Shown: positions 9,912 to 29,704 of the stretch, in pieces
How the letters are laid out: every line of letters starts with the position of its first letter
Numbering within the stretch: the stretch's first letter is position 1
NCBI RefSeq assembly: GCF_902762735.1
Contig: NZ_CACWPP010000039.1
Coordinates: 1 to 33,324 of the forward strand
Source: an uncultured Ruminococcus sp.
Lineage (GTDB): Bacteria > Bacillota > Clostridia > Oscillospirales > Ruminococcaceae
Reading direction: 5' to 3'
Length of the DNA stretch: 33,324 nt
Made by a program: the position numbers and the translations under genes
Notes under the pieces: model-generated
Databases searched by the model: none
Told to the model about the DNA's origin: nothing
What the model saw: only the letters and a program-made list of their open reading frames with translations

Positions 9912-9912
9912 G

Positions 9913-14063: not shown

Positions 14064-15071
14064 TTAGCAAATTCTCGGCAGAAGTTCGCCGCCAGGCTGA
14101 GGCAGCATCGTCTGTGCGCCTATCTCGGTCTCCATAACGACTCTTCCTGCGTTGTCGGCGGTTATCTCGCCTATTATCGCCGCATTCTTAGAATACTTGC
14201 CCTCGCGCAGTTTCTCGACCAGCGCGGGCGCTTTGTCTTTCGGGGCGATTATGACAAGTCTGCCCTCACAAGCAAGGTAGAGGGGTTCAAGACCCAGCAT
14301 GCCGCAAACGCCCTTAACTGCGGGGTCTACGGGTATATCAGCCGCATTCAGGCGAACGCCAACGCCGCTCTGCTCGGCTATCTCGTAGAGGACTGTACCC
14401 ACACCGCCGCGTGTGGCATCGCGTATGGTGTGTATCTCGTTGGTGACGGTGTAAAGGCTTTCGACTGTTCCCCAGAGCGGTGCGCAGTCGCTGTCAACAT
14501 CAGCATCTATGCCGTATTCGTCACGCGCCAGCAGGATAGTACAGCCGTGTCTGCCCACGTCGCCCGTCACGATAACAGCATCACCGGGCTTTGCGTAAGT
14601 GCCTGAGGTGTCTGCATTGTCCATTATTTTTCCGATACCTGTGGTGGTTATGAATATCTTATCCACCTGACCCTTGCCTGCGACTTTAGTATCGCCTGCA
14701 ACTATCTTAACGCCGACTTCGTTGGCGGTCTTTTCCATCGAAGCCGCTATCTCTTCCAGCTTGTCAAGCGGAAAGCCTTCTTCGATGACGAAAGCGCATG
14801 TCATGTAGAGGGGCTTTGCGCCCATGCAGCTCAGGTCGTTTACTGTGCCGCAAATGCTGAGTTTACCGATGTTTCCACCGTTGAATTCAAAAGGCGAAAC
14901 GATGAAGCCGTCGGTGGACATAGCCAGTCTGCCCTCGCCCATGTTCAGCACAGCCGCATCGTCTGCGGTGAACTGCGGGTTCGAGAAGTGCGCCTTGAAT
15001 ACCCGATCTATCAGCTCGGAGGTCTGTTTTCCGCCTGCGCCGTGTGCCAGTGTTACTGTTTTTTCTGCCAT
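14064..15071 (-). CDS. hypE: Hydrogenase maturation protein HypE (cyanide-forming dehydratase)
   Basis: 335 residues, full length. HypE takes a carbamoyl group from HypF onto its C-terminal cysteine and dehydrates it with ATP to a thiocyanate, the source of the CN ligands. The C-terminus is the required Pro-Arg-Ile-Cys. The AIRS-like fold is seen from LAHGAGGK at the N-terminus through the GDTKVAGKG and RDATRGGVGT motifs. AAAGGAG lies nine bases before the ATG. It is the last gene of the cluster, 82 bases after hypD, and ends at the terminator. All residues needed for activity are visible. Confidence 0.95.
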   Translation of the reverse strand: MAEKTVTLAHGAGGKQTSELIDRVFKAHFSNPQFTADDAAVLNMGEGRLAMSTDGFIVSPFEFNGGNIGKLSICGTVNDLSCMGAKPLYMTCAFVIEEGFPLDKLEEIAASMEKTANEVGVKIVAGDTKVAGKGQVDKIFITTTGIGKIMDNADTSGTYAKPGDAVIVTGDVGRHGCTILLARDEYGIDADVDSDCAPLWGTVESLYTVTNEIHTIRDATRGGVGTVLYEIAEQSGVGVRLNAADIPVDPAVKGVCGMLGLEPLYLACEGRLVIIAPKDKAPALVEKLREGKYSKNAAIIGEITADNAGRVVMETEIGAQTMLPQPGGELLPRIC

Positions 15072-15153
15072 TTCAATTTACTCCTTTATGCTGTTGTACG
15101 ATAAAGTGTACTTTCGCTAGTGATTTGTTACTGCCGCTTTATCCATGCAGTTC

Positions 15154-16200
15154 TTATACTCCGCCGTACTGATAATAAGCCGCGCAAGCGCCCTCGTCCG
15201 ATACCATGCATGCACCGACAGGGTGTTCGGGGGTGCAGACTTTGCCGAATACCTTGCAGTCGCTTGGCTTGCATTTACCCTGCAAAACTTCTCCGCAGCG
15301 GCAGGCGGGGTTCGGCTTGCCTGTTATCTTCGGCATGCTGAATTTTTTGCGCGCATCGAACTCTGCGAACTCGTCACGCAGTTTCATGCCCGACATGGGT
15401 ATCACGCCCAGACCGCGCCATTCGGTGTCGCAGGGTTCCATCACGCGCTTTACCAGTTCACGCGCTGAGGGATTGCCCTCCGCCTTGACAACGCGGGGGT
15501 AGCAGTTTACAAAGAACGGCTCGCCCTTTTCGGCGTTCACCAGTATGACAGCCAGCGCTGTCAGCAGTTCGCTTGCGGTAAAGCCCGCAACTACACCCGA
15601 AACTCCGCGCTTTTTCAGTTCTTCGCATATCTCTGTGCCTGCTATGGCATTGACATGTCCGGGATAGAGGAAAGCATCTGCACTGCCCTCAAGGGCTTTG
15701 TAGGCGTTTGGCATGGTCTTGTTGGCGGTCAGCAGTGAGAAGTTTTTAAGCCCCTCTTTCTTTGCAGTTTCCACTGCAAGACATGCCGACGGCGTGGTGG
15801 TTTCAAAGCCCACCGCCAGAAAAACTATCTGTTCATCGGGGTTCTGCCGCGCCATTTCTACTGCGTCCAGCGGCGAGTAGACAGGTCTTACCTGCGCACC
15901 CTTAGCCCTTGCGCCCGCCAGCGGCATCTCAGTGCCGGGTACACGTATCAGGTCACCGAAAGTGGTGATGATACAGCCCTTTTCCAGCGCCAGCCAGATA
16001 GCTTCGTCGATGAAGCCCACAGGTGTCACGCATACGGGACATCCGGGACCCGATATAAGTTCAACGTTCTCGGGCAGAAGTTTTCTCAGACCCAGCCTGA
16101 ATAACTCGTGGGTGTGAGTGCCGCAGACTTCCATTATCCTCAGCGGTCTGCCCTTGTAGTTCGTGATAATGTCACGCGCTTTTTTAGCCTGTTCGTTCAT
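15154..16200 (-). CDS. hypD: Hydrogenase maturation protein HypD
   Basis: 348 residues. HypD is the [4Fe-4S] scaffold that, with HypC, holds Fe while the CN and CO ligands are attached. The family motifs are intact: EVCGTHTHE near residue 24 (the Cys thought to coordinate the Fe(CN)2CO group), GPGCPVCVTP near 51, and the C-terminal cysteine block CRCGEVL...C..FG..CTP...GACMVS that binds the cluster. Its start overlaps the hypC stop by four bases (ATGA), so the partners are translated together. Confidence 0.95.
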   Translation of the reverse strand: MNEQAKKARDIITNYKGRPLRIMEVCGTHTHELFRLGLRKLLPENVELISGPGCPVCVTPVGFIDEAIWLALEKGCIITTFGDLIRVPGTEMPLAGARAKGAQVRPVYSPLDAVEMARQNPDEQIVFLAVGFETTTPSACLAVETAKKEGLKNFSLLTANKTMPNAYKALEGSADAFLYPGHVNAIAGTEICEELKKRGVSGVVAGFTASELLTALAVILVNAEKGEPFFVNCYPRVVKAEGNPSARELVKRVMEPCDTEWRGLGVIPMSGMKLRDEFAEFDARKKFSMPKITGKPNPACRCGEVLQGKCKPSDCKVFGKVCTPEHPVGACMVSDEGACAAYYQYGGV

Positions 16201-16406
16201 AACAAATTCTCCATTACATCGTTAGCTTCGTCCTCGTCGCTCTCGGTTATCTTCGCGATGGCAACGCCTGCGTGTACCATAACGTAATCGCCGGGTTCAA
16301 GTTCTTCCAGCAGGTCGGCGCTTACCTCGCGCTTTGCACCGTTCGCATCTATCAGCGCAGTGCCGTCCTTAACACTTACTACTTTTGCAGATAAACCAAC
16401 ACACAT
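16197..16406 (-). CDS. hypC: HypC/HybG-family chaperone
   Basis: 69 residues. HypC carries the Fe(CN)2CO unit with HypD and delivers it to the target. The essential Cys2 directly after Met is present (MCVG), and the OB-fold hallmark GDYVMVHAG is at about 39-47. The tail is acidic (ESDEDEAND). Most family members read MCLAIP, so MCVGLS is a slight variant, which may matter if the client is not a standard [NiFe] hydrogenase. AAGGAGG lies upstream. The 74-base gap to hypF includes a fragment like the AGTTGGCG end of the R1/R3 repeats. Confidence 0.92.
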   Translation of the reverse strand: MCVGLSAKVVSVKDGTALIDANGAKREVSADLLEELEPGDYVMVHAGVAIAKITESDEDEANDVMENLL

Positions 16407-16480: not shown

Positions 16481-18787
16481 TCAGCCGTTGTATATGCCGT
16501 AAGCCGCCTGACCCAGCGCTATGCCGCCGTCGTTTGGCGGTACAAGACTGTGGGTCAGCACACTGAAGCCTGCATCGCTGAGCCTGTCACAGCACAGCCG
16601 CGTCAGCAGTCTGTTCTGGAAAACACCTCCGCTGAGGGCGGCTGTTTTCAGCCCCGTGTCAGCGCTTATCTTCACACAGGCGGCAGTCACCATGTCAGCC
16701 AGCACCGCATGGAACGTGTATGCCAGCGCCCCCGCCTGACAGTCTGCCAGCCTGCGTTCGGCAATATCCGCCGCCAGTGCCATAGTGCAGAGGGTCACAT
16801 AGTCCTTGTCCGCTTTTATGAGTTTTTCGGGCTTGCGGTAGTTCTCCGCTATGGCGGGGTGCTTTTCGAGATACTTCTCAGCCTCGCACATCAGCGCGGT
16901 GGAAGCCTCACCCTCAAAAGTCGAAGTCCTGACAATGCCCAGTATGGCGGATACCGCATCGAACAGCCGCCCGCAGCTTGTTGAGCGCACGCTGTTCAGA
17001 CCTTTCTCAGCCATCGCTTTTTGCAGTTTGTACTCGTTAGCTTCGCAGATGCCCAGCTTGCGGCAGAGTATCTCTCCGCCGTCACCGAAAGCGTCCCTCA
17101 GCAGTGCCGAAGCGATGCGCCAGCCCTCTTTCGATGAAAGGTCGCCGCCTGTTTGTATGAACGGCTTGATGCTTCCCACGCGCCTGTATGCCCTGTAACT
17201 GCATACCATCAGTTCGCCGCCCCAGATCGTGCCGTCATCGCCGTAGCCTGTGCCGTCAAAGCTAATACCTATCACCTCGCCCTCAAAGCCGTTCTCAGCC
17301 ATGCAGGAGAGTATATGCGCGTAGTGGTGCTGGACTTTCAGCAGGGGAATGCCGCGCTTCTGCGCCATTTCCTCAGCCACCCGCACTGTGTTGTACTTAG
17401 GGTGCGTGTCACAGACTATGACCTGCGGTTTGGCTTCCAGCAGACCGCACATGCGCTCGGTACTTTCTTCCAGCGCCTTGACGGTGCGTATATCAGCCAT
17501 GTCGCCCACATAAGGCGAGGGGTAAAGCAGGTCGCCCCGCGCTATGCAGAAGCAGTTTTTAAGTTCGCCGCCGATGGCAAGCACCTGCCTGTTATCCTTA
17601 TTTTTCAGCATGAACGGCAAGGGCGCAAATCCCCTCGAACGCCGTATCATGTAGGGTCTGCCGAACAGCCAGTCGCACACGCTGTCATCAGCCCGCAGAA
17701 GTATCTGCCTGTTATGCGAAAGCATTATGTCGCAGAAGCCGCCTATCTCTTTTTGCGCATCTTCGTCATTTCGGCAGATGGGTGCGCCGCGCACATTTCC
17801 GCTGGTCATCACCAGACAGTCGCTGAACTGTATCCCGTCAGGGTAGTCAAAAATAAGCATCTGCACAGGTGCGTATGGCAGCATCACTCCGACTGTCGTG
17901 TTGCGGGGGGCTATCAGTTCGCTGATGGTGGTGGTACTGCGCTTTTTCAGAAGCATTATGGGCTTCTGCCAGCCTGTGAGATATTCCTCCTGTCCCGCGC
18001 GGACGTGACATTCGCGCCGCACAGTGCCGATGTCTTTCATCATCAGCGCGAACGGCTTTGCGGGGCGCTTTTTGAGTTCTCTCAGCCTTGCCACCGCATC
18101 TTCGTTGTGCGCATCACAGCACAGGTGAAAACCGCCTATACCCTTTATTGCCGCTATCTTTCCCTCCATGATGGCGCGGCGCACTTCTGTTATCGCCGTC
18201 CCGCCGCGAATATCTGTGCCGACTATATACACCTCAGGTCCGCAGTCGTTACAGCAGACAGGCTGTGCATCGAACCGCCTTGTGGACGGGTCGTGATATT
18301 CTGCGGCGCATTTTTCGCACATCGGGTGTTCGCGCATGGTGGTGCGCTCGCGGTCGTATGGCATGGTGTCCAGTATGGTCAGGCGGGGACCGCATTGTGT
18401 GCAGTTTATAAACGGGTGAAGATACCTCCTGTCCGTTTTATCGAACAGCTCTGCCCTGCACTTATCGCAGGTCGCAATATCGGGCGAAACGAATATATCG
18501 CCGTACTCTTTTTCGCTCTCGATTATCTCAAAACCCGAAAATTCGGTGTATTCTGCTTCGCTTATATCAACGCCCAGCACCATCGCCCTTTCGGGAGGGT
18601 CATGCTTTATCCTGTCAGCGAAAGTGTAAAGCGCTTCTTCCTCGCCTGTGGCAATAATATCCACATACGAACCCTTGTTAGCCACCGTACCGACCAGCCC
18701 CAGCTCATCTGCCGCCACCGCCGTGAACGGTCTGAAACCCACGCCCTGCACTATGCCGAAAGCGCGTATATTAACGGTTTTTCTCAT
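16481..18787 (-). CDS. hypF: Carbamoyltransferase HypF
   Basis: 768 residues, full length. HypF turns carbamoyl phosphate and ATP into a carbamoyl adenylate and transfers the group to HypE. Domains in order are: acylphosphatase (about 1-90, GIVQGVGFRPF), two zinc-finger halves with four CxxC pairs (about 108-185), a YrdC-like domain (about 200-385, KGIGGFHLCC), and the Kae1-like transferase domain with the metal motif VQHHYAH and GTGYGDDGTIWGGE. The start has GGAG upstream and lies 15 bases after the second NifK-like gene. That spacing places hypF in the same transcript as the nitrogenase-like genes. Confidence 0.96.
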   Translation of the reverse strand: MRKTVNIRAFGIVQGVGFRPFTAVAADELGLVGTVANKGSYVDIIATGEEEALYTFADRIKHDPPERAMVLGVDISEAEYTEFSGFEIIESEKEYGDIFVSPDIATCDKCRAELFDKTDRRYLHPFINCTQCGPRLTILDTMPYDRERTTMREHPMCEKCAAEYHDPSTRRFDAQPVCCNDCGPEVYIVGTDIRGGTAITEVRRAIMEGKIAAIKGIGGFHLCCDAHNEDAVARLRELKKRPAKPFALMMKDIGTVRRECHVRAGQEEYLTGWQKPIMLLKKRSTTTISELIAPRNTTVGVMLPYAPVQMLIFDYPDGIQFSDCLVMTSGNVRGAPICRNDEDAQKEIGGFCDIMLSHNRQILLRADDSVCDWLFGRPYMIRRSRGFAPLPFMLKNKDNRQVLAIGGELKNCFCIARGDLLYPSPYVGDMADIRTVKALEESTERMCGLLEAKPQVIVCDTHPKYNTVRVAEEMAQKRGIPLLKVQHHYAHILSCMAENGFEGEVIGISFDGTGYGDDGTIWGGELMVCSYRAYRRVGSIKPFIQTGGDLSSKEGWRIASALLRDAFGDGGEILCRKLGICEANEYKLQKAMAEKGLNSVRSTSCGRLFDAVSAILGIVRTSTFEGEASTALMCEAEKYLEKHPAIAENYRKPEKLIKADKDYVTLCTMALAADIAERRLADCQAGALAYTFHAVLADMVTAACVKISADTGLKTAALSGGVFQNRLLTRLCCDRLSDAGFSVLTHSLVPPNDGGIALGQAAYGIYNG

Positions 18788-18802: not shown

Positions 18803-19825
18803 TCAAAACATTTTTCCCGACACTGCGAAGTGCGGCAGGTCTATCCATTCTCCGCCGAAGTCGGGCAGTGCCCTTTTAAGGCTGATGTCGCCTATTATCC
18901 TATCAAAGCCCTGCGCCTTCTGCGCGAAGTCCTCTTCGTCCGCTATGTGGAAGTCGCCCGCCTGCGCCGCGCTTTCGTCCAGCTTAAAGAAAGTCCCGCA
19001 GACACCGCCGCCTATAATCTCACGCACAGTGTTCGCAGTGAACTGCTGGTGTATTATCAGCGTCTTTTCCGCAGGTGCGAGCGCTTTCAGCTTGTCCTCA
19101 TATCCTTTCGGTATGGGACAGCCGTGTGCTGTCACATCGAGCGAAAATTTTTCTTTAAGATAAGCCCCCGCTTTCATGCCCGAAGGCGCTGTCACGAAAA
19201 CTTTTTCAAACCGCGATATGTTCTTTATCTCATCAAGTCCGCTGTCAAGCCCGATGCACTTGACTTCATCAAAGCCCTCCGCCTTTATGACCTCTGTTAT
19301 CCTGTCAGCTTTGGCAAAGCCTGTGTTGAGGGGTGTCGCGCCGATCACGGCGGCAGTGCCTTTTTCTGTGGGCAGTTTATCCTGTGCAAAACGCCTGAAC
19401 AGCGCCAGATATGCGTCCTCTTCGCCCTTGTCGTACAGCTTTGTGCCGTCACAGGGCACGCATATACAGGGAACTCCTGTTTTCTTTTCAGCCATGCGTT
19501 CTATGGCTTTGTAGTCGGTGGCGATAACTGCGGGGACGGGTGTGCCCACCACTGCGGTGAACGCTCTTCCCAGCTGTTCCTGCGCACGCGCCAGCTTAGC
19601 CACAAGGCGGTCATCTCTGCCCAGTATAGCGTCCATATCTCTCAGCCCCGCACTCAGCAGTGCCGACTTTTTGGTGAACCATCTCGGTTCGTCAAAACCG
19701 CAGACATTACCCGCACAGCCGCCCGCATCACATATGACCGTAATGCCGCCCAGTTCGTAAAGCACCGAACATGCGCCCGAATCATCGGGGGCAAGGGGAG
19801 AAATGAATTTCAGCAGTTTTTTCAT
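18803..19825 (-). CDS. Nitrogenase component 1-like protein, NifK-type (module 2)
   Basis: 340 residues, shorter than NifK (about 520). The N-terminus matches the NifK P-cluster region. DDSGACS (Cys19) corresponds to NifK Cys70 and DAGGC (Cys37) to Cys95, followed by FDEPRWF like the NifK HFKEP stretch. The third ligand is gone: Thr95 stands where NifK has Cys153, though extra Cys32 and Cys42 are near. It is a paralogue of the protein at 21994-23166, sharing an LPHFA(V/F)SG motif near the C-terminus. The ATG at 19825 overlaps the stop of the NifD-like gene by one base and has AGGAGG seven bases before it. A GTG at 19828 is less well placed. It is probably the partner of 19825-21111. Substrate unknown. 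Confidence 0.85.
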   Translation of the reverse strand: MKKLLKFISPLAPDDSGACSVLYELGGITVICDAGGCAGNVCGFDEPRWFTKKSALLSAGLRDMDAILGRDDRLVAKLARAQEQLGRAFTAVVGTPVPAVIATDYKAIERMAEKKTGVPCICVPCDGTKLYDKGEEDAYLALFRRFAQDKLPTEKGTAAVIGATPLNTGFAKADRITEVIKAEGFDEVKCIGLDSGLDEIKNISRFEKVFVTAPSGMKAGAYLKEKFSLDVTAHGCPIPKGYEDKLKALAPAEKTLIIHQQFTANTVREIIGGGVCGTFFKLDESAAQAGDFHIADEEDFAQKAQGFDRIIGDISLKRALPDFGGEWIDLPHFAVSGKMF

Positions 19826-21111
19826 CACTTATCCTCCTTTTCAAGTGCTTTTGAAAGCTGTTCTGCCAGAAGCGACACACCCTCATAACCGAAAGGCTGT
19901 TCTTCATCATTGAACGGCACATTGGGCAGGTCGGGGTGATAGTAGCCCGCATCTACGCCGATGGTGACATCTATCTCAGTTTTGCGCTCATAGTTCAGCA
20001 TAGTCGGTGAAAGATTTGTAAATATCCTTGTATCGGGCGAAAGTTCCGCCAGCTTTTTTATATAGAAGAAATTGCGCTCACCCACCGTGCCGTATATCTC
20101 ACTTACCTTGTGACCGTACTCTGTCAGCGCAAGGGCTAGTTCAAAGCTGTCAGCATTTACGCATTCGCCCACCGCATATCTGACAGCGCCATGCTTTGCC
20201 GTCAATTCCTCGACCGACTTCTTTGCCGCGTCATAGAATTTGCCGTCCTCAAACTGCACGCCCAACGCCTGACCCAGCAGGCGGTACTGATTGCGTATCT
20301 TGTCTATGCGGTAGAACCTGTTTATCTCTATGAACGGTATGCCCAGCCGCTTTTCCATATCCTGTGCGGCGTATCTGGCTTCGGGGTTTATGACAAGGTT
20401 GAAGTTGGCGCTTGAAAGTTCGTGGTAGCGCTCTATGGTGTCACAGCGCGAAAGTTCCTGTGTGCTTACCCCTACCGACTTAAGCAGGCCGTAAAGTTCA
20501 CAGCTGTCATGGAGATGCGAGAAATAGCCCAGTATATTACAGCGGCCGCCGCGCCTTTTCTGCGGCTTCAGCAGACCGTATACCGACTTGCGTATGCCTG
20601 CCATCGGCGGCAGACGCTTTTCTCGGGTCAGCGCATACATGTATGCGGGCAGTGTGGGGACACCTGTTTCGTTCTCACACTTTCGACAGACTCTCTCCAT
20701 GTCAGTGCCAAGCAGTGCATCGACACAGGTTATGCATATCATCACTGCCGTTGGCGTGTAGTCAAGGCTGTCACAGACTTCCTTGCAGGCTTTGGGTATC
20801 TTCGTAAGGTGCCTGCCTGTAACGATGTCGGTATCGTCCAGCAGAAGATAGAAAAACCTCTCGTTGTAGCCCAGTTCGTTCAGCAGAGCGGTGTTTCGCC
20901 CGCAGCAGCCCGGTGCTACCAGCAGCATCACCGAACCGGGTATCGCCAGACCCGCACGCTTTACGCCGAAGCCCTTAGCGCCGGGCGAGTTGAAATCCAG
21001 TGTGGCAGGGGAACTGTATATCATGTGCTTTGAACTCATCAGTTCATCGGGAATGTTCTCAAAGCCCTTTTCAGCCAGTTCTGCCGCTGTGATGTAATAT
21101 GCTTCAACCAT
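19825..21111 (-). CDS. Nitrogenase component 1-like protein, NifD-type (module 2)
   Basis: 428 residues. The component 1 fold is indicated by VAPGCCGRN (Cys69/70, near NifD Cys88) and [12 protein letters not shown] (Cys129, near NifD Cys154). It also has [20 protein letters not shown], which lines up well with the NifD stretch around Cys275. In that alignment Asn242 replaces the FeMo-cofactor Cys ligand. QPFGYEG near 405 lines up with the NifD His442 motif, with Phe407 in place of His. So it should not bind FeMo-cofactor in the nitrogenase way. The true start is the ATG at 21111, overlapping the NifH-like stop by eight bases. A longer frame to 21189 lies inside that gene. An extra CxxC (Cys142, Cys145) is present. 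Confidence 0.86.
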
Positions 21112-21868
21112 TAGCTTCGTCCTCCGCAATAAGCAGTTTTGCCAGCCCGAAGAAACGCTTTGCAGTTTCGCATTCGGGGTCGCCCTCAATGACAGTTTTG
21201 CCCATATCCTCGTACTTTATTATGTCAGCCGAGCGGGGAATGTCAGCCGCAACATCAAGCCCTGCACTTTCGGCAAAAGCCCTGACTTTCTCTTCCTCAT
21301 TCTCGACAGCCCTGCGGTTCATTATTATGCCGCGCACTTTTGCATAGCTTCTGTCCTCGAAGTTCTTCACTGCTTTGTTGATGTTGTTTGCCGCATACAG
21401 TGCCATCTTCTCGCCCGAAGTCACTATCAGCACCTTGTCGGCATAGCCCTCGCGTATGGGGGCGGCAAATCCGCCGCAGACCACATCGCCCAGCACATCG
21501 TAAAGCACCACATCGGGCTTGAATTTCTCGAAAAGTTCCAGTTCTTCCAGCAGTGCGAAGGTGGTTATTATGCCGCGTCCCGCACAGCCAAGACCCGGTG
21601 TTGGTCCGCCTGTTTCGATGCAGAGTATGCCGCCGTAGCCCACCTTGCTTATCTCTTCGATGGAAGTCGGCTCGTCATCGTGTTCGCGCATGTAGTCCAT
21701 CACAGGGGTGACAGGTGTGCCGCCCAGCAGGTTTATGGTTGAATCTGCTTTGGGGTCACAGCCTATCTGTATCACCCTTTTGCCCAGTGAAGCGAACGCC
21801 GCCGCCAGATTTGCCGTGCATGTGGATTTTCCGATGCCGCCCTTGCCGTATATCGCCAGTTTTATCAT
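21104..21868 (-). CDS. NifH-like iron protein (module 2)
   Basis: 254 residues. It should be the ATP-driven electron donor to its NifD/K-like partner. The P-loop GKGGIGKST is at 8-16, the DPKADST switch region at 38-44, the [4Fe-4S] ligands are Cys95 (GLGCAGRG) and Cys131 (GDVVCGGF), and Arg98 matches the ADP-ribosylated Arg of NifH. The start is the ATG at 21868, with AAGGAG ten bases before. The in-frame codons back to 21928 are encoded by an R2 repeat and are not part of the gene. It is shorter than NifH (about 290), like ChlL/BchL- or CfbC-type members. It is clearly paralogous to 24715-25473. Confidence 0.93.
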
Positions 21869-23399: not shown

Positions 23400-24713
23400 T
23401 CAGATACAGCTTTCGCACCCGATGCCCTTGTGGGAGATCAGCCTGCGCCTGTCTTTAGGTGCGCGGGCGGCTCCCGCAATAAGATCGGCTATGGCGCTTA
23501 TGCCTGTAAAGCCCCAGTATCCGCCGTTCTGCACAATGTTCACAAAATAGTCGGTGTTAAAATAGTGCGCCGCTTTCTGCCCTATTGCTATCACCCGCTC
23601 ATGTTCGAGTTCGGGGAAATCAAGCATGTTCACATTCACTGCCGAACATATGGTGATGTCGGGCGCAAGACTTTTCAGCCGCTCAAACGCCGCACCGTCC
23701 TCGCCAAGACAGTCATTGATGATATATCTCACATCAAAACCGTGACGGACAAGCAGTTCCGCCAGCCCGAACGGCTGAGTCACCGCCGTGAAGTCGATGG
23801 CTATGGGCGTATCGCCGACAGCTTCCTTAGCCGCCGTCAGCGCTTTTTTTGCAGAATTTTCCTCTGCTGTCAGGTCGGGGCAGTCCACCCCGAGTGCATC
23901 GCACAGCTTTGCCATGTTCGCCCTTATCTCGTCAGCATCAAAGCTGTTCGGCAGATACATCGCCTGCGCACCCAGCCGCGCCGAAAGTTCTTCGCACCCG
24001 AACTGCGCAGTGGGCAGATAAGCTATGTTCAGCGAACTTTTTGCCATGTCAAGATATTCCTGATAGCTTGTGCATGCTGTCAGGTCGCGCAGGACAAAGC
24101 CGTTATCCTTTATGACCCTCACAAGTTCGCTGTTTTCATCTGTTGCCCTGTCGTTGCCCAGTATGCTCACCGACTTTCTGTCAAGCCCCATCGGTCTGAG
24201 CGCATCATAAAGCTGTGCGCGCATCTTCGCATCGGGCGAGATGGTCTTTCTCATGGTGGGGGTCATGTAGCAGTCGGCAAAGTGTATATCGGGGTATTTT
24301 TCTGAAAGTTCGGCTATTATCACATCAAAGTCGCACCCCGCGAACAGGTGTATACAGCTGAGGTATAAAAGCACCTGTTTTGGACGGTAGGGGAGTTTTT
24401 CCAGTATCTCGCATACACCGTCCGTCACATCGCTCTCCAGTGTGCCGTCGAACATATCCTGCTCGGATACCGAGATCCAGCTCATTCTGTCCAGCGCGTT
24501 CATCTCTGCCGCCGTGAGTATCACGCCGCGCAGACAGCCCTGTGCGCAGGCGAATATCTCATGCGTTTCGGGTATCAGCATACCTGTGTGTACTATGTTC
24601 CACACGCCCCTTGCGGGCGGGTTGTATTCAAGTCCCCCCGCGAAGAAGTCACCGTTCACCGCATCGCCCAGCCTGACTGTGGGCGGTCTGTCAAGACCGA
24701 CTTGTTTCAGCAT
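23400..24713 (-). CDS. Nitrogenase component 1-like protein, NifD-type (module 1)
   Basis: 437 residues from the ATG at 24713, chosen because GGAGG lies eight bases upstream. An earlier ATG at 24737 would put that site inside the gene. Possible cluster ligands are Cys56/Cys60 (FACAQGCLRG) and Cys120 (LSCIHLFAGCD, near NifD Cys154). SLNIAYLP aligns with the NifD segment that holds Cys275, but Leu233 replaces the Cys. GYWGFTGISAIADL aligns with the NifD YHGFDGFAIFARD segment, with Trp400 where His442 would be. Both FeMo-cofactor ligands are thus absent. The protein ends in a CxxC (GCESCI), not known to me in NifD. It is a distant relative of 19825-21111. Confidence 0.84.
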   Translation of the reverse strand: MLKQVGLDRPPTVRLGDAVNGDFFAGGLEYNPPARGVWNIVHTGMLIPETHEIFACAQGCLRGVILTAAEMNALDRMSWISVSEQDMFDGTLESDVTDGVCEILEKLPYRPKQVLLYLSCIHLFAGCDFDVIIAELSEKYPDIHFADCYMTPTMRKTISPDAKMRAQLYDALRPMGLDRKSVSILGNDRATDENSELVRVIKDNGFVLRDLTACTSYQEYLDMAKSSLNIAYLPTAQFGCEELSARLGAQAMYLPNSFDADEIRANMAKLCDALGVDCPDLTAEENSAKKALTAAKEAVGDTPIAIDFTAVTQPFGLAELLVRHGFDVRYIINDCLGEDGAAFERLKSLAPDITICSAVNVNMLDFPELEHERVIAIGQKAAHYFNTDYFVNIVQNGGYWGFTGISAIADLIAGAARAPKDRRRLISHKGIGCESCI

Positions 24714-24714
24714 A

Positions 24715-25473
24715 TCACTCACCTCCGCAAGCCGCATATACGCTGTCAGCGATGGCTTCCAGCTGTTTTGCCGTATCGCTGTCGGGGGCGCTCGCGACTA
24801 TCGTTTTGCCGCGCTCTTCCGCCAGCGGTATATCCTCGCTCCTGTCCAGTGTGCCTATCACTTCAGTGCCGAAGTCAGCCGCCAGTTCAGCCGCCGCATC
24901 GTCCTCATCGGGGACTCCTCTGCGGTTGAGGATTATGCCGCCCAGTCCCGCATAGCCGCGTCCCTTGAAATTATCCACCGCCATGCAGATGTTTGCCGCC
25001 GCATAGCGCGACATCTTCTCTCCCGAACAGACCACGAATATCTTGTCGGCATAGCCCTTGCGCATCGGCATGGAAAAACCGCCGCACACCACATCGCCCA
25101 GCACATCGTATATCACCACATCGGGCTTGAACCTTTCATAAGCCCCCAGCTTTTCCAGACTTTCCAGCGCGTTTATTATACCGCGCCCCGCACAGCCAAG
25201 ACCGGGTATCGGACCGCCCGCTTCAACGCAGTACACCCCGCACTCAGCCCTGAACACCACATCGTCCAGTGTGAATTTACCGCCTGTCTTTCTGGTCATG
25301 TCAAGCACAGTCGGTATCCTGTCACCGCCGTGTAAAAGTGAAGTCGAGTCTGCTTTCGGGTCACAGCCTATCTGCATCACCGTAAGACCTTTTGCCGCCA
25401 GCGCTGCCGAGATATTGCATGCTATCGTTGACTTGCCGATGCCGCCCTTGCCGTATATCGCGAATTTTATCAT
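24715..25473 (-). CDS. NifH-like iron protein (module 1)
   Basis: 252 residues. P-loop GKGGIGKST at 8-16, DPKADST at 39-44, cluster ligands Cys94 (GLGCAGRG) and Cys130 (GDVVCGGF), switch Asp in DVLGDV. It is about the same length as the module 2 paralogue and lacks the C-terminal extension of true NifH. Its start overlaps the hydE stop by four bases (ATGA), and the NifD-like gene starts one base after its stop. HydE, NifH-like and NifD-like are therefore made from one message. This is the best sequence evidence that HydE works with the nitrogenase-like enzyme, or at least is regulated with it. Confidence 0.94.
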   Translation of the reverse strand: MIKFAIYGKGGIGKSTIACNISAALAAKGLTVMQIGCDPKADSTSLLHGGDRIPTVLDMTRKTGGKFTLDDVVFRAECGVYCVEAGGPIPGLGCAGRGIINALESLEKLGAYERFKPDVVIYDVLGDVVCGGFSMPMRKGYADKIFVVCSGEKMSRYAAANICMAVDNFKGRGYAGLGGIILNRRGVPDEDDAAAELAADFGTEVIGTLDRSEDIPLAEERGKTIVASAPDSDTAKQLEAIADSVYAACGGE

Positions 25474-26513
25474 TTAAAGTCACCTCTCGTTACTGCCACC
25501 TCATACCCGATGGACTTCATGCGCTGTTCAAGACAGCCCCTGCACTGTGCGCTCTCATCGCCTGTGCATATCTTGTTGTCGTAAAGCATGTATTTCTTGC
25601 GCACCGCTGTGGGCGAAAGGTTGGGCATTATTACGTTTGCCCCCGCCTTTACGCCCTCTTCACGCCCCAGCGGGTGTATAGTGCCCAGCGCAGTCGTGGC
25701 AGGCAGAAGCACTCTCGGCAGAAGTATCCTGCACAGACTCAGCAGGAACAGCGTCAGTTCGTAACTGCCTTTCGGCTCGTCTTTGAAAGGCGTGTCCTTG
25801 TGGGGCAGAAAAGGTCCTATACCTATCATTTCGGGCTTGAATTTTTCAAAGAACAGCATGTCCTCAGCGATGCACTCTACCGTCTGGTAAGGCGAACCTA
25901 CCATTATGCCCGCGCCTGTCTGGTAGCCCAGTTCTTTCAGCTGTTCAAGACATTTCATGCGGTGTTCCCACGACATCTCGGCGGGGTGGAGTTTTTCGTA
26001 GTGCGCCTTGTTCGCCGTTTCATGCCTGAGCAGATACCTGTCAGCCCCCGCTTCACGCAGAGCCTTGTAGTCCTCATACTCCATCTCGCCCAGCGAGAGT
26101 GTCACCGCGCAGTCGGGGTGCTTTTCTTTCAGCTTACTTACTATGCCGCACAGCATCTCGGTGGAATAGCTTTTATCCTCACCGCTTTGCAGAACGAATG
26201 TGCGGAAACCCAGTTCATACCCCTCGTCACAGCATTCGCATATCTCCTCAGCCGTCAGCCGATAGCGCTGTGCGTTCTGATTTGAACGCCTTATGCCGCA
26301 GTAAAGGCAGTCGTTTCTGCATATATTCGAGAACTCCACTATGCCGCGTATGAATATCTTGTTGCCGTAGTGCGCAAGACTTATCTCACGCGCCAGCGAT
26401 GCCGCGTACTCCCTGTCCTCATCTGTGAAGCCCGAAAGCACTTCCACCCATTCAGCCTTGTCAAGATGCTTGTTCTCACCGAGCCTGTCTATAAGCTCTC
26501 TTACTCTGCCCAT
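25470..26513 (-). CDS. hydE: [FeFe]-hydrogenase maturase HydE (radical SAM)
   Basis: 347 residues. The radical SAM cluster motif CRNDCLYC (Cys-x3-Cys-x2-Cys) is near 64-71. The C-terminal region keeps the second, optional HydE cluster motif Cys-x7-Cys-x2-Cys (CTGDESAQCRGC). In [FeFe] hydrogenase maturation, HydE acts on the Fe(CO)2(CN)-cysteine complex made by HydG on the way to the 2Fe subcluster. The start overlaps the stop of the upstream paralogue gene by one base. No hydG is found in the window, so it must be elsewhere if this HydE does its standard job. Confidence 0.93.
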   Translation of the reverse strand: MGRVRELIDRLGENKHLDKAEWVEVLSGFTDEDREYAASLAREISLAHYGNKIFIRGIVEFSNICRNDCLYCGIRRSNQNAQRYRLTAEEICECCDEGYELGFRTFVLQSGEDKSYSTEMLCGIVSKLKEKHPDCAVTLSLGEMEYEDYKALREAGADRYLLRHETANKAHYEKLHPAEMSWEHRMKCLEQLKELGYQTGAGIMVGSPYQTVECIAEDMLFFEKFKPEMIGIGPFLPHKDTPFKDEPKGSYELTLFLLSLCRILLPRVLLPATTALGTIHPLGREEGVKAGANVIMPNLSPTAVRKKYMLYDNKICTGDESAQCRGCLEQRMKSIGYEVAVTRGDFK

Positions 26514-27166
26514 TACATTTCACCCTGTTTTTCCGCTTTTTCCAAAGCATACTTCATTATCATTATCTCAGCATTTATCTGCTGTACCTCTTTATCATGC
26601 ATCATCGGCAGACCTCTCAGCTGTTTCAGGTCTATCTCATTCAGACCCATCTCGTCGGCAACTTCGATAAAAACGTGATACGCCCCGCCCTTGCCGTGAG
26701 AAACATAACGCTTGCTTACTTTCTGTATGTTTGCGAGCCTGCACATGGTCTTGCCTGCGATATATACATACCTGCCGTCAGAAGAACACCCGCTCACGCT
26801 CATGCTGCTTGCCTTCATAAGCCCCTCAAATACAGCGTCGATGCCGTCTGTTTCGATTATCGTGTTTACCCTTTCCATTTCGGGATAGAAGTTGTTGTTC
26901 AGCATTCTCAGCCTATAATATGCCGCAACGAAAAGCACAGGCATCATCAACAGGCACATCGCCCTGTTTCCCCAGCTTTTGAGAAACAAGACTACCCCCA
27001 AAAACAGCAACGCAAAAGATGCCGTTAATGCTATTGTCTGTATTTTTTTCACCTTTATCATTTTGGGGCTGAACCTTGCCGAAAGTGCGAGAAAGTTGTC
27101 TATCTTCTCATACTTCTGCGCATCCGCACTGTTGAGCCGCTTGTAAAAATCAACTTTGTTATCCAT
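26513..27166 (-). CDS. Unknown membrane protein, paralogue 1 of 3
   Basis: 217 residues, no family recognised. Layout: an N-terminal helix with a LSARFSP motif (about 28-34), two membrane helices (about 43-65 and 70-88), then a cytoplasmic part containing ER.NTIIETDGIDAVFEGLM and a mixed region ending in an Ala/Lys/Glu-rich helix. The same order is seen in 27300-27962 and, without the membrane part, in 27996-28499. GAGGA lies upstream of the ATG. The stop overlaps hydE by one base. Its place between HydF and HydE suggests a role with the cluster, perhaps at the membrane, but nothing shows a function. Confidence 0.75.
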   Translation of the reverse strand: MDNKVDFYKRLNSADAQKYEKIDNFLALSARFSPKMIKVKKIQTIALTASFALLFLGVVLFLKSWGNRAMCLLMMPVLFVAAYYRLRMLNNNFYPEMERVNTIIETDGIDAVFEGLMKASSMSVSGCSSDGRYVYIAGKTMCRLANIQKVSKRYVSHGKGGAYHVFIEVADEMGLNEIDLKQLRGLPMMHDKEVQQINAEIMIMKYALEKAEKQGEM

Positions 27167-27197: not shown

Positions 27198-27313
27198 TGT
27201 GGTTATCCCGCTGACACACCAAAATAAACGATGTTATATCGGGAACCCAATACAGTTGGCGGTTATCTTTCCCCCGCCTGCGGCGGGGGAAAGATAACAT
27301 CAACTCAGTTTTT
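27198..27313. repeat. R1 end fragment plus R3 hairpin
   Basis: GGTTATCCCGCTGACACACC (left R1 end) is followed by a perfect 16-bp stem, TTATCTTTCCCCCGCC with GGCGGGGGAAAGATAA and a TGC loop (27263-27297). The stem can extend outward through AGTTG / CAACT. Positions 27247-27312 are present in exact reverse at 33260-33324. The repeat overlaps the last codons of 27300-27962. Confidence 0.82.
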
Positions 27314-27962
27314 CATTCTGCTTGTATCTTGCCTGTTCTATGGGCGCTGTCAGTTCCTCAAAACGCGCCTGCATTTTCTTTTCGCTGAAACCGTGAAGCA
27401 TTTTCACATCGACATGGCATAAGCCGCATTCGTCCAGTATCTCAGCACTGGCGAAATAGGAACAGCTGTCATCGCTGTTCTCTTTCCTGATATAGGTGCG
27501 CTGTATGTCCTTTATGCGGTAAAGACAGTCGTTCTTTTTGAAGATATATTCCTCGCCCAGCCATATATTGGTATCACCCATCTGACGCGCGTGAATAAAG
27601 TCATTATACACCCTTTCCAGACCGTCCGCCATGATTATTTTCTCAGCCCTCTCCATTTCCGTAGAAGTACCGACACCGTATATCTGCCTTGCCAGTTTCC
27701 AGACGCCCAGCAGGAAATTGCCTATCACAAATTCCGGTCCCACTGCGGGTATCTTGAACCCCACCGTCAGCAGTGTGACAGGGATAGATATATACAGCAG
27801 TATACCGCCGCCCAGTGTCACCGTCAGCAGTGTCTTTCTTTTTCGCGCCACATTTTCGGGGCTGAACCTTGCTGTCAGCCGCAGGTGTTCATCTATCGCT
27901 TTGTACATCTCGGCATCTCTGCCGCCCATGTCGTAATAAGAGACCATCTCCTTGCCGTCCAT
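27300..27962 (-). CDS. Unknown membrane protein, paralogue 2 of 3
   Basis: 220 residues with the paralogue pattern: LTARFSP at about 28-34, two hydrophobic segments (about 44-68 and 77-92), ERAEKIIMADGLERVYNDF, then a mixed alpha/beta part. The final residues (EKLS and stop) lie within a repeat that is also present at 33260-33324, so the natural end may have been replaced by the repeat. GGAGGT lies six bases before the ATG. The gap to paralogue 3 is 33 bases. Function unknown. Confidence 0.75.
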   Translation of the reverse strand: MDGKEMVSYYDMGGRDAEMYKAIDEHLRLTARFSPENVARKRKTLLTVTLGGGILLYISIPVTLLTVGFKIPAVGPEFVIGNFLLGVWKLARQIYGVGTSTEMERAEKIIMADGLERVYNDFIHARQMGDTNIWLGEEYIFKKNDCLYRIKDIQRTYIRKENSDDSCSYFASAEILDECGLCHVDVKMLHGFSEKKMQARFEELTAPIEQARYKQNEKLS

Positions 27963-27995: not shown

Positions 27996-28499
27996 TTATT
28001 TCTGCTTCTTTTTAGCCGCCTCGATGGGCTTGCTTATCATCTCGAACTGCTGCTGCCGCTGGACTTTTATGACGCTCAGTTTTCTCAGTTCCAGCGTATC
28101 CGTGCCTGTCTCATCGCTTATATCAGCCACACAATGATACTCGGTATCATCGCCCTGTGTCTCGTCGATGATATAGCACTTGCTGACATCGCTCATTCTA
28201 AAAAGGAACATGCCCTGCCTGAAAATATACTTACTTCCGATATATACATCGCACCTGTCTATCCTTGTGCAGTGCATCAGGTCATCGTAAACGCTTTCCA
28301 CGCCGTCATTATTGACTATATTTTTAGCCCTTTCAAGCATCGAACCGCCGCCGCGGTTTATGATAGACCCGAGATAGTTCTTTAATTTGCGTATACCGCC
28401 GCTGAAACGGGCGTTGAGCTGTAAAAACTTGTCTATCTCCGCGTACTTGTCTGCGTTCGCACCTGTTTTTTCATATGAAAAAGCATCATTATTCTTCAT
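27996..28499 (-). CDS. Unknown soluble protein, paralogue 3 of 3
   Basis: 167 residues. It has the family start (LNARFS motif) and the ERAKNIVNNDGVESVYDDLM segment, but the two membrane helices are missing. A short Gly-rich linker (NRGGGS) joins the parts, so this member should be soluble. The Lys-rich C-terminal helix is kept. AGAGGT precedes the ATG, 14 bases after the hydF stop, so it is co-transcribed with hydF. Function unknown. The three copies look like tandem duplication followed by divergence. Confidence 0.73.
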   Translation of the reverse strand: MKNNDAFSYEKTGANADKYAEIDKFLQLNARFSGGIRKLKNYLGSIINRGGGSMLERAKNIVNNDGVESVYDDLMHCTRIDRCDVYIGSKYIFRQGMFLFRMSDVSKCYIIDETQGDDTEYHCVADISDETGTDTLELRKLSVIKVQRQQQFEMISKPIEAAKKKQK

Positions 28500-28513
28500 C
28501 GCTGACCTCTTTT

Positions 28514-29704
28514 CTATAAAAGTCCGGGCAGTATCTCCAGACTTCTTTTAAGTATACCGTTCATGTATGCGATAGCTATGCCGTAGTTTGTGACAGGCAC
28601 GCCTGCGTTTTCGACATTCTGCATCCTGCTGTGCATCTCGCGTGCATTCAGCATACAGCCGCCGCAGTGTATCACCAGTGCAAAGTCACTCAGGTCATCG
28701 GGGAACTCTCTGCCCGATGAAAACTCCAGCCTGAACTCTTTGCCTGTGTACTTTTTCAGCAGTTTCGGAAGTTTTACAGTGCCTATATCTTCGCACTGAC
28801 GGTGGTGTGTACAGCCCTCCGAGATAAGTATCCTGTCGCCGTCCTTCAGTGAATCTATCGCCTTAGCGCCGCGCACAGCGATCTCTAAAAATCCCTTGTG
28901 CCTTGCCATGAGTATTGAGAATGAAGTCAGCTTTATGTCAGCGGGCGTGTCAGCATTCGCCTTAGCAAACACCTGACTGTCGGTTATGACCACAGCAGGC
29001 TTAGGGTCAAGCTGTTCGAGATAGCCTTTCAGCTCGGTCTCGCGGCAGGTGAGTGCCGCCGCGCCGTGTTCCAGCAGATCTCTTATCACCTGCTGCTGCG
29101 GAAGTATCAGCCTGCCCTTTGGTGCTGCCTTGTCTATCGGTATGCACAGCACTGCCAGTTCGCCCGCCTTTACAAGGTCGCCCACCAGAGGGTATTCCTG
29201 CTCTTTCACATTACTCAGCCTGCCCACAAGCTCTCTCATCTCATTGATGTTTGTCTTGTTGAGCGCACTGACATATATTTCATTACTGCCCGCCTGCGGT
29301 ACGCTTTCCAGCAGGTCGGATTTATTCTTAGCTATTATAAAAGGTATACCTTTCTGTCTGAAAAGCTCTGTCAGCTGTTTCTCGCTGTCATCGAGTTCGC
29401 GCGTGCAGTCCGTCACCAGCACCGCGCAGTCTGTCCTGCCCAGCACCTGCACCGTCTTTTTTACCCTCATTTCGCCCAGTTCGCCCTCGTCATCGTAACC
29501 GGGTGTGTCGATTATCATCACAGGTCCCATCGGCAGAAGTTCCATCGCCTTGTATACAGGGTCGGTGGTAGTGCCCGGCGTGTCGGAGACTATCGCCAGC
29601 TCCTGATTTGTGAATGCGTTGACCACGCTTGATTTTCCCGCATTCCTGCGCCCGAAAAATCCGATGTGTACCCTCTCGCCTGAGGGTGTGTCATTAAGTC
29701 CCAT
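28514..29704 (-). CDS. hydF: [FeFe]-hydrogenase maturation GTPase HydF
   Basis: 396 residues. HydF is the scaffold that carries the 2Fe precursor to apo-HydA. GTPase motifs: GRRNAGKSS (P-loop, near 15), DTPGTTTD, DTPGYDD and NKSD. The C-terminal cluster-binding part has CTHHRQC and HCGGC, with the conserved CxH...HCxxC arrangement. I chose the ATG at 29704, since AAAGGAG lies nine bases before it. The ATG at 29713 is too close to that site. The longer frame to 29767 only translates an R2 repeat. No HydA or HydG is encoded nearby. Confidence 0.95.
   Translation of the reverse strand: MGLNDTPSGERVHIGFFGRRNAGKSSVVNAFTNQELAIVSDTPGTTTDPVYKAMELLPMGPVMIIDTPGYDDEGELGEMRVKKTVQVLGRTDCAVLVTDCTRELDDSEKQLTELFRQKGIPFIIAKNKSDLLESVPQAGSNEIYVSALNKTNINEMRELVGRLSNVKEQEYPLVGDLVKAGELAVLCIPIDKAAPKGRLILPQQQVIRDLLEHGAAALTCRETELKGYLEQLDPKPAVVITDSQVFAKANADTPADIKLTSFSILMARHKGFLEIAVRGAKAIDSLKDGDRILISEGCTHHRQCEDIGTVKLPKLLKKYTGKEFRLEFSSGREFPDDLSDFALVIHCGGCMLNAREMHSRMQNVENAGVPVTNYGIAIAYMNGILKRSLEILPGLL

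Follow-up and report, generated by a model that had tools for sequence, protein, structure and literature searches.

A gene cluster with HydE, HydF, HypCDEF and two nitrogenase-like sets as a probable HydG-independent route to the [FeFe]-hydrogenase H-cluster

Gene content and organization of the cluster

On the minus strand of a 33,324-nucleotide stretch of DNA (the window) from an uncultured Ruminococcus sp., we identified a cluster that contains hydF and hydE, two nitrogenase-like NifH-alpha-beta sets, and hypF-C-D-E. Each gene that the original prediction had placed on one strand was found. The features, in the direction of the minus strand, are as follows.

30002..30247, minus: 81-aa putative regulator (TM1266 family) of the iron-only hydrogenase system, lying upstream of hydF (113 bits to NCBIfam TIGR03959, cut-off 60.8; PF21699)
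28514..29704, minus: hydF, GTPase scaffold of the H-cluster (TIGR03918, 553 bits, cut-off 325.6)
27996..28499, minus: small ORF P3, paralogue of P1 and P2, R. albus group only (no Pfam or NCBIfam match)
27300..27962, minus: small membrane-type ORF P2 (no Pfam or NCBIfam match)
26513..27166, minus: small membrane-type ORF P1 (no Pfam or NCBIfam match)
25470..26513, minus: hydE, radical SAM H-cluster maturase (TIGR03956, 568 bits, cut-off 254.6)
24715..25473, minus: nifH1, nitrogenase-reductase-like ATPase of set 1 (PF00142, 282 bits)
23400..24737, minus: alpha1, NifD/NifE-like subunit of set 1 (61 bits to PF00148; nothing matched in NCBIfam); the true start is probably the Met at 24713
21994..23166, minus: beta1, NifK/NifN-like subunit of set 1 (PF00148, 110 bits)
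21104..21928, minus: nifH2, nitrogenase-reductase-like ATPase of set 2 (PF00142, 295 bits); the start is probably the Met at 21868
19825..21111, minus: alpha2, NifD/NifE-like subunit of set 2 (PF00148, 93 bits)
18803..19828, minus: beta2, NifK/NifN-like subunit of set 2, with a CDAGGCxxNxCGFDEPRW motif (PF00148, about 55-56 bits)
16481..18787, minus: hypF, carbamoyltransferase (TIGR00143, 733 bits, cut-off 466; five Pfam domains)
16197..16406, minus: hypC, Fe(CN)2CO chaperone, 69 aa (ORF with an MC start motif, found by reading the gap)
15154..16200, minus: hypD, Fe(CN)2CO scaffold (TIGR00075, 411 bits, cut-off 193)
14064..15071, minus: hypE (TIGR02124, 424 bits, cut-off 252)
14031..14058, minus: strong terminator-like hairpin directly after hypE (pattern scan, consensus match only: 11-12 stem pairs and a T run, in both orientations)

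The predicted tight spacing is borne out. The hydE/nifH1 and hypC/hypD junctions each overlap by 4 nt, nifH2 and alpha2 overlap by 8 nt (with alpha2 starting at the ATG at 21111), and hypF, said to start close behind a nifK-like gene, follows beta2 after 15 nt. The alpha1-beta1 junction is loose, at 233 nt, part of which is a dispersed repeat. The earlier reading overlooked the TM1266-type gene and P1-P3, the small paralogues that lie between hydF and hydE. A relative of the TM1266-type gene occurs in 68 of 80 named loci. Because a 14-pair terminator-like hairpin (29863-29830) separates it from hydF, this gene may have its own transcript; the hairpin after hypE is the probable end of the operon. 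Relatives of P1, P2 and P3, sought among 20 unnamed and 80 named loci, L150-L159 and L163-L182, are confined to L055, L057, L062 and L064-L071.

Distribution and conservation

The run from alpha1 to hypE is present in 46 of the 80 named relatives, and 28 more are truncated within 600 bases; hydF lies outside the fetched stretch in 46 of the 80. Carriers belong to the Bacillota, Spirochaetota and Lentisphaerota. Largely the same gene order is seen in several genera and in no fewer than four families, which excludes chance. Rearrangements are few, hypE having moved in L085, L113 and L115. The linkage thus holds across distant genera rather than being limited to one strain, the finding that would have spoken against the original prediction. 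A second version of the operon keeps set 1 and has a FecCD/BtuC-type ABC importer instead of set 2 and the Hyp genes, which suggests scavenging from outside.

The cluster HydE is an ordinary HydE, nested among HydE proteins adjoining HydG in a tree from a quick search with many weak forks. On the same weakly forked tree the Hyp label needs only two changes, so the genomes are not independent.

Relationship to known nitrogenase-like proteins

All four alpha and beta proteins exceed the PF00148 cut-off of 28.6 bits (55-110 bits), and the motifs of the sets are well conserved. The P-loop of nifH1 is found in 92 of 93 loci and both cluster-cysteine motifs in 93 of 93. Both cysteine motifs are likewise kept in nifH2 (81/81), and the beta2 motif is kept in 77 of 78 loci. 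Profiles against the PDB match alpha1 to NifE and nitrogenase alpha, and alpha2 to nitrogenase alpha/NifE. AF2 models of alpha1 (pLDDT 85) and alpha2 (pLDDT 83) have the nitrogenase fold, with fold matches that include NifEN, DPOR, catalytic nitrogenases and methylthio-alkane reductase, at only 11-20% identity to the solved relatives. Cys37 of beta1 aligns with a GC-motif cysteine of the NifEN fusion 9i0g, located in its second half, which we infer to be NifN. No active-site residue in the alpha or beta proteins indicates what is bound.

The cassette resembles nitrogenase and NifEN in its NifH-like ATPases with both cluster-cysteine motifs, in the component-1 profile of alpha and beta, and in the fold of alpha1 and alpha2. 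However, all of its proteins fall below the NifH, NifD and NifE cut-offs: the NifH-type proteins score 297 and 310 bits (NifH cut-off 394), and the component-1-like proteins, where matched at all, 31-65 bits for NifE (cut-off 505), with NifD matches of 31 and 45 bits (cut-off 654). CfbCD, DPOR, methylthio-alkane reductase and NflHDK are likewise nitrogenase-like reductases with other jobs. The cassette differs from CfbCD and DPOR/COR in that both NifH-type proteins are below the cut-offs for CfbC (298 bits each, against 402), BchL (207 and 178, against 345) and BchX (194 and 185, against 331). Methylthio-alkane reductase is matched by fold (9fmg/9d9u, 13-17% identity), and no tetrapyrrole or sulfur-metabolism gene was recognised within the cassette. 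Locus L154 in genome G116 also has NifH and two component-1-like genes, adjoining a BtuCDF-type ABC importer, which is of a related type. However, its alpha and beta proteins are only about 23-25% identical to those of the window, and it does not adjoin hydE or hydF.

Hyp genes and the [NiFe] hydrogenase

HypF catalyzes the first step toward the cyanide ligands of [NiFe] hydrogenases as a carbamoyltransferase, and HypE makes thiocyanate on its own C-terminal cysteine. Compared with this branch of [NiFe] maturation, the cassette is complete (HypF, HypC, HypD, HypE) with the main catalytic motifs. The MC start of hypC is present in 66 of 66 loci, CGTHxH and GPGCPVC of hypD in 68 of 68, and the C-terminal cysteine of hypE in 54 of 56; a strict HypD C-terminal cysteine pattern fits only 53 of 68. 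The hypD gene is the only PF01924 match of its genome, and in 80 named loci Hyp never occurs without set 2.

The cassette departs from the [NiFe] branch in its linkage to hydE and set 2 and in that most genomes searched have neither HypA nor the large subunit. The large subunit (PF00374) is absent from G000 and from all 14 HypD-bearing genomes. It occurs in two of 27 further genomes searched, G193 and G198, as group-4-like 359-aa ORFs with RVCGIC and DPCISC (one of the two was scanned). HypA is absent from G000 and exceeds its cut-off in three of 38 genomes (G181, G193 and G198). A CobW/HypB-type gene adjoining HypA was seen in L184 only.

Exclusion with HydG

HydF occurs in 79 of 148 genomes of the family, and HydG in 62 of those. 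Close relatives of set 1 occur in 12 of these family genomes, always with HydF and never with HydG. The 79 HydF genomes thus divide into 12 with set 1 only, none with both, 62 with HydG only and five with neither (Fisher p = 1.2e-10, relatedness ignored). Here a match counts as set 1 at an E of 1e-30 or less, a line set after seeing a gap from 1.4e-30 to 3.1e-14. A further 13 genomes, eight of which have HydG, match more weakly, through distant nitrogenase-like or nif proteins, and are left uncounted. The HydG cut-off is reached in none of 26 named cluster genomes, among them those of R. albus 8, BL-3, AC2031 and R. bicirculans 80/3, and in none of 16 genomes from the genus of the window; the best match in G000 scores 183 bits against a cut-off of 312. 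Within genus g36, the cluster is found in G035, which lacks HydG, and HydG in G143, which lacks set 1. G043, G088 and G116 have HydF but lack HydG and set 1 alike, so the cassette is not a precondition for losing HydG.

All genomes searched for HydA have it (28/28 and 29/29). G000 has three PF02906 matches ([FeFe] hydrogenase); two of these regions carry the TSCCP-type and ExMxC..GC motifs, and the screen found none in the third. In 20 of the 62 HydG loci, selected by us, the genes follow TM1266-hydE-hydG-hydF in whole or in part; of these 20 loci, 13 have hydG between hydE and hydF, and 16 have TM1266. The cluster shares with this system HydE, HydF, a TM1266-type regulator and the HydA client, and its cassette stands after hydE, as hydG does in HydG-bearing relatives. 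However, the place of HydG is taken by two nitrogenase-like sets and HypCDEF, or by one set and the ABC importer, and hydF lies upstream of hydE, compared with downstream in HydG operons.

A proposed HydG-independent route

Given that HydG is absent, [FeFe] hydrogenase present, [NiFe] hydrogenase mostly absent and the cassette at the place of hydG, the product is best taken to be the H-cluster. We consider it probable that the cluster provides the 2Fe part of this cofactor by a route independent of HydG. This rests on the genes present and their order, the mutual exclusion of set 1 and HydG, a HydA in every genome searched, [NiFe] hydrogenase and HypA missing from most genomes, and largely intact motifs; from these we infer every reaction step, the order of the steps and the cargo of the importer. 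HypF and HypE would use carbamoyl phosphate as the source of cyanide, and HypC-HypD would build the Fe(CN)2CO unit. NifH1-alpha1-beta1 and NifH2-alpha2-beta2, using ATP and low-potential electrons, would convert it to a mono-iron CO/CN synthon, which HydE normally gets from HydG. HydE and HydF would then complete the cluster and pass it to HydA. HypCD makes one CO and two CN per iron, compared with two CO and one CN in the HydG synthon, and this route therefore has to assume an exchange of ligands. As set 2 goes with Hyp, it would most likely work on or with HypCD-bound iron, for example supplying CO by CO2 reduction, or in ligand exchange. Set 1 goes with HydE and would most likely perform the last reduction or hand-over before it. 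Where set 2 and Hyp are missing and the importer adjoins set 1, their product or an equivalent iron complex may be imported. An [FeFe] hydrogenase has been isolated from R. albus, which produces H2 (PMC6288185, in the portion available), so its H-cluster must be made somehow.

The original prediction had proposed a functional linkage in which the nitrogenase-like enzymes are tied to an Fe-CO-CN centre, and this part stands. The further suggestion that Hyp proteins feed a new nitrogenase-like cofactor is not supported. A common need for anaerobic Fe-S work, the plain alternative, leaves the exclusion with HydG unexplained. It is very improbable that HypCDEF serve an ordinary [NiFe] hydrogenase, with the nitrogenase-like sets an unrelated reductase (acting on tetrapyrroles, thioethers or sulfonates) that happens to sit in the operon. 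G193 and G198, with both the group-4-like subunit and HypA, do offer a second possible Hyp client. However, the missing client (PF00374 absent in 14/14 HypD-bearing and 25/27 other genomes), HypA absent or below cut-off in 35 of 38 and the constant company of set 2 largely refute this explanation. HydE and HydF might instead use stray CO and cyanide, with the Hyp and nitrogenase-like genes sharing only the operon and making something else, such as a new Fe-CO-CN cofactor for another enzyme. The three genomes lacking both HydG and set 1 fit this, as does the roughly 1% activation in vitro by HydE and HydF without HydG, from trace CO/CN (PMC9431212, in the portion available). We nevertheless judge it quite improbable in view of the exclusion of set 1 with HydG, the cassette at hydG's place with the TM1266 regulator nearby, and the lack of any further gene common to the cluster loci of four genera (twelve regions listed).

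Nitrogenases can reduce CO2 to CO, which would suit an arrangement in which the nitrogenase-like enzymes give only CO, HypCDEF only cyanide, and HydE and HydF collect the released ligands with no preformed Fe(CN)2CO. With free CO or CN, HydF-HydE activation in vitro rose twofold (PMC9431212, same portion). However, the iron scaffold HypC/HypD keeps its main motifs, needless for a cyanide-only role, and two separate sets are retained, so we regard this arrangement as unlikely. Within the H-cluster route itself, sets 1 and 2 may be NifEN-like scaffolds instead of redox enzymes, the NifH ATPases driving hand-over and alpha/beta carrying the growing Fe-CO-CN unit. The nearest solved relatives by profile (NifE and nitrogenase alpha), the fold matches to NifEN and a NifH1-alpha1 fusion in two Clostridium genomes (L137, L141) point this way. 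However, fold and profile matches equally include catalytic nitrogenases and methylthio-alkane reductase, and we hold the scaffold version only tentatively. Somewhat less likely still is a broader proposal, that the nitrogenase superfamily includes organometallic enzymes making or exchanging CO/CN on iron, and that Hyp-less species import an iron-CO-CN or similar complex, H-cluster parts being traded among gut and rumen bacteria. There, set 2 with HypCD would possibly reduce CO2 to a CO ligand and set 1 hand HydE its synthon.

Implications

In the known H-cluster pathway the five CO/CN ligands are supplied by HydG; according to one study's title (PMC3105041), all five reportedly derive from tyrosine. 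We found no description of a HydG-free route with Hyp and nitrogenase-like proteins in the literature searched. R. albus-like and other anaerobic bacteria appear to have a second natural route to the [FeFe] hydrogenase cofactor. If so, a key bio-organometallic cofactor would be made in a new way, combining cyanide from carbamoyl phosphate with nitrogenase-like catalysis, and the nitrogenase superfamily would gain a new function and HypCDEF a new client. The source of the CO ligand in anaerobes is an open question on which the route would bear. It may also explain some industrial acetogens that, in the available portion of PMC9431212, seem to lack HydG and yet have HypCDEF and no HypAB. Since the carriers R. 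albus and R. bicirculans are gut and rumen hydrogen producers, the route would have a bearing on rumen hydrogen and methane.

Organization of the cluster

The cluster lies on one contig (C39, the window) of a 4.06 Mb draft genome that is 97% complete. It joins hydE and hydF to two nitrogenase-like gene sets (set 1, nifH1-alpha1-beta1; set 2, nifH2-alpha2-beta2) and to hypF, hypC, hypD and hypE (Hyp). The relevant features are:

30247 down to 14064, minus strand: in order, TM1266-type regulator (a putative hydrogenase regulator family), hydF, three small paralogous ORFs, hydE, set 1, set 2, hypF, hypC, hypD, hypE
26513-28499, minus strand: paralogous small ORFs of membrane type, assigned to no known family, that lie between hydE and hydF in the R. 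albus group
21994-23166, minus strand: beta1
38-89, 23196-23247, 30399-30450 and 32171-32231: copies of a dispersed intergenic repeat of approximately 60-145 bases, one of them in the alpha1/beta1 gap

We infer from the positions of motifs, and from alignments of profiles with solved structures, that the component-1-like proteins are NifD/NifE-like (alpha) and NifK/NifN-like (beta). The hypE gene is directly followed by a strong hairpin bearing a T run, and another hairpin separates the regulator gene from hydF. No Rfam family reaches the gathering score in the window, and a single hit is at chance level; RNA regulation was rejected on that basis.

Ruminococcus albus 8 (alpha1 98% and hydE 99% identical) was the nearest named relative in a search that may have omitted the window genome's own records. 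The beta1 genes of the two share only 81% identity (R. albus 8 locus L064), whereas the adjoining nifH1, alpha1 and nifH2 are 98-100% identical, which suggests local recombination or fast change of beta1. The small membrane-type ORFs occur as six tandem copies in another fetched locus (L062, 1-3906).

Conservation of the cassette

The 20 fetched regions of relatives comprise 13 of the Hyp type and seven of an importer type, in which set 1 lies beside a FecCD/BtuC-type ABC importer. The original prediction asked whether the linkage of nitrogenase-like, hyd and hyp genes extends across distant genera; the order hydE-set 1-set 2-hypFCDE recurs in these regions, in the window's genus and three others. 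In one genome (G035) hydF is located apart from the cluster.

An alpha1 alignment scanned against 84,980 species gave at least 559 confirmed relatives, the best 80 of which were retained as named loci. Within these best 80, set 1 is present in all, set 2 in 69, Hyp genes in 64, TM1266 in 68, hydE in 63 and hydF in 34; the whole run from alpha1 to hypE is found in 46, and the core genes share one strand in every case. HydG was found in none of the 80, nor were Hyp genes found in any of them without set 2. In 28 of the 34 loci without the whole run, the sequence continues for no more than 600 bases past the last core gene. Of the remaining six, three (L072, L079 and L112) are missing just hypE in the vicinity, L113 has no hypF, L107 has 1.35 kb free of Hyp genes beyond set 2, and L140 is the importer version. 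The hypE gene is relocated in L085, L113 and L115. Certain named loci duplicate other fetched records (e.g. L069 and L057), and the counts of the two sets are thus not additive. The hosts include Oscillospiraceae, Lachnospiraceae AC2031, Clostridiaceae BL-3, a Spirochaetaceae genome and Lentisphaeria/Victivallales. On a draft contig of G148 (L063, 66-2403), hypF is apparently split over three ORFs, through a frameshift or assembly error.

The proteins largely retain the motifs screened, in counts that pool all fetched loci (some genomes twice) and use family motifs or motifs taken from alignments. Both cluster cysteine motifs are kept in NifH1 (93/93) and NifH2 (81/81), as are CxxxCxRG in alpha1 (99/99), CC and CxTC in alpha2 (78/78), HxAxGC in beta1 (84/91) and CDAGGCxxNxCGFDEPRW in beta2 (77/78), the C-terminal PHxA of which is found in only 68/78. 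Motifs are likewise retained in HypC (66/66), HypF (71/71), HypD (CGTHxH and GPGCPVC, 68/68; strict C-terminal cysteine pattern, 53/68) and HypE (C-terminal cysteine, 54/56). HydE keeps CxxxCxxC in 76/76 and the pattern of its second cluster in 53/76; that cluster is dispensable according to a 2022 study (PMC9431212). AlphaFold models of alpha1 (pLDDT 85) and alpha2 (pLDDT 83) match the folds of nitrogenase, NifEN, DPOR and methylthio-alkane reductase, with query TM-scores of 0.56-0.69 at 11-20% identity among the 50 matches listed for each. In two Clostridium loci (L137 and L141) nifH1 and alpha1 form a single ORF of approximately 700 residues, which supports a working NifH1-alpha1 pair.

Mutual exclusion with HydG

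HydG is the standard supplier of the Fe-CO-CN synthon in H-cluster maturation by HydE, HydF and HydG. We scored HydG by its curated profile in 148 mostly draft genomes drawn from the family. HydF exceeds its cut-off in 79 of them and HydG in 62, all HydF-bearing. A beta1 query has matches at E <= 0.001 in 25 genomes. Set 1 was called at E 1e-30 or better, giving 12 genomes; the next match is at 3.1e-14 and 26% identity, and the 13 weaker matches (distant nitrogenase-like or nif proteins, eight in HydG-bearing genomes) were not counted. Eleven of the 12 show at least 40% beta1 identity over most of the length, and that of G022 is a fragment at a contig end, 67% identical over 82 residues. All 12, spanning 10 genera, are HydF-positive and none is HydG-positive. 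The HydF-bearing genomes thus divide into 12 with set 1 only, none with both, 62 with HydG only and five with neither (p = 1.2e-10, a value inflated by ignoring relatedness). Genus g36 contains both situations, the cluster in one species and HydG in another.

The HydG cut-off was reached by none of 16 genomes of the window's genus (cluster presence being tested in part of them), by none of 26 named cluster genomes (25 Hyp-bearing, one importer type) in a search of 31, and not by R. albus 8, AR67 or KH2T6. Assembly gaps do not explain this absence, since the genomes of carriers such as R. bicirculans 80/3, BL-3, AC2031 and G113 are complete or in very few contigs. HydG matches below the cut-off (approximately 170-230 bits, in ORFs of approximately 330-420 amino acids) are probably ThiH. 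ThiH as a stand-in for HydG was rejected, as R. bicirculans has one weak match only, which is its HydE.

We chose 20 of the 62 HydG loci for inspection: in 13 of them hydG sits between hydE and hydF, and 16 have TM1266 nearby. The cassette takes the place after hydE that hydG occupies in these operons; hydF is downstream of hydG there and upstream of hydE in the window. On a quick-search tree of 50 rows (13 of 46 inner branches weak), HydE of the cluster genomes falls inside the HydG-partnered HydE proteins, which argues that the same kind of enzyme changed its supplier. On this tree the Hyp label requires two changes and the importer label three, two of them forced by well-supported branches.

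Of the five genomes with HydF and neither HydG nor set 1, G049 carries HydG in frame-broken pieces and G016 is 55% complete, leaving three (G043, G088 and G116). No explanation was found for G088. The other two have HydE-like proteins, at 155 and 158 bits against a cut-off of 255, encoded next to an importer, possibly a third way to supply the H-cluster and a lead only:

L150, 5532-10111 (G043): sub-cut-off HydE-like protein of the radical SAM type with an ABC importer of NMT1/BPD type at its side, next to hydF
L153, 8520-11839 (G116): the same arrangement of HydE-like protein and NMT1/BPD-type importer

G116 also has NifH, a BtuCDF-like importer and two component-1 genes in a row (L154, 3935-10145); these nitrogenase-like genes are distant from sets 1 and 2 and are not beside hydE or hydF. 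G091 and G093 have weak pairs of beta1 matches.

The importer version

Set 1 occurs without HypD in seven family genomes, and set 2 was not seen beside set 1 there; L140 is an eighth case. A FecCD/BtuC-type permease, ATPase and binding protein lie beside set 1 in L048, L049, L050, L053 and L140; the binding protein of L048 is at 8214-9398. In L052 the binding protein alone is visible, and L051 and L054 are interrupted by contig ends. The ATPase carries a C-terminal TM1266-type domain in three loci:

L049, 1770-2858: ABC ATPase with TM1266-type domain
L050, 14269-15321: ABC ATPase with TM1266-type domain
L140, 7078-8208: ABC ATPase with TM1266-type domain

This domain ties an importer of metal-complex type to the hydrogenase system. 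Metal complexes, for example siderophores, heme or B12, are the usual cargo of this importer family, hence our idea that the importer version may depend on scavenging.

Hydrogenase clients

[FeFe] hydrogenase (HydA, PF02906) is present in 28/28 and 29/29 genomes searched. Two of the three HydA regions of the window genome contain TSCCP-type and ExMxC..GC motifs; the motif screen gave no match in the third. The R. albus [FeFe] hydrogenase that was isolated reportedly came from strain 7. A review (PMC6288185) states that this electron-bifurcating enzyme has been isolated and that glucose is converted to H2 by the organism.

The Hyp proteins might instead serve a [NiFe] hydrogenase. The large-subunit family (PF00374) was found in none of 14 HypD-bearing genomes in one search and was absent from 25 of 27 in another. 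The two positives (G193 and G198) contain 359-residue ORFs with RVCGIC and DPCISC motifs, one of which, when profile-scanned, gave NuoD/FpoD as best names, below cut-off; G022, which is of the importer type and has no HypD, matches PF00374 as well. HypA exceeds its cut-off in three of 38 genomes (G193, G198 and G181). As both are missing from most genomes searched, Hyp here is usually without a nickel client, and this role was rejected. Nitrogen fixation and an F430 or chlorophyll reductase role were rejected for the window sets, all of which fall below the profile cut-offs. Elsewhere in the window genome is a separate, genuine-looking nif set (L183, contig C36 10000-29999, at 5121-10199) with a radical SAM protein (perhaps NifB), a NifH that scores 426 bits against PF00142, and a pair of component-1 genes at 301 and 208 bits; the bacterium may be a nitrogen fixer.

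Proposed function

From the parts and their co-occurrence we infer a route in which HypF and HypE would make cyanide, HypC-HypD would assemble an Fe(CN)2CO unit, set 2 would act together with HypCD, and set 1 would yield a synthon handed to HydE. Two CN ligands accompany a single CO on the HypCD iron, and the HydG synthon has two CO ligands with a single CN (PMC9431212), so that ligand exchange or CO supply would be required; this would be a natural place for nitrogenase-like chemistry. The component families are known. Our literature search, which covered few subscription papers and no preprints, gave no account of a HydG-free H-cluster route from nitrogenase-like and Hyp modules.

The 2022 study, a survey of Clostridium acetogens, did not find HydG in five of eight species, and reports HypCDEF without HypAB in five species and an additional hypCDE alongside the only hypF in C. 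carboxidivorans (PMC9431212). Its hypotheses there, atypical HydG candidates, activity of HydE-HydF alone and other nickel routes, are offered without settling on one (PMC9431212). The cassette could account for these observations in the acetogens.
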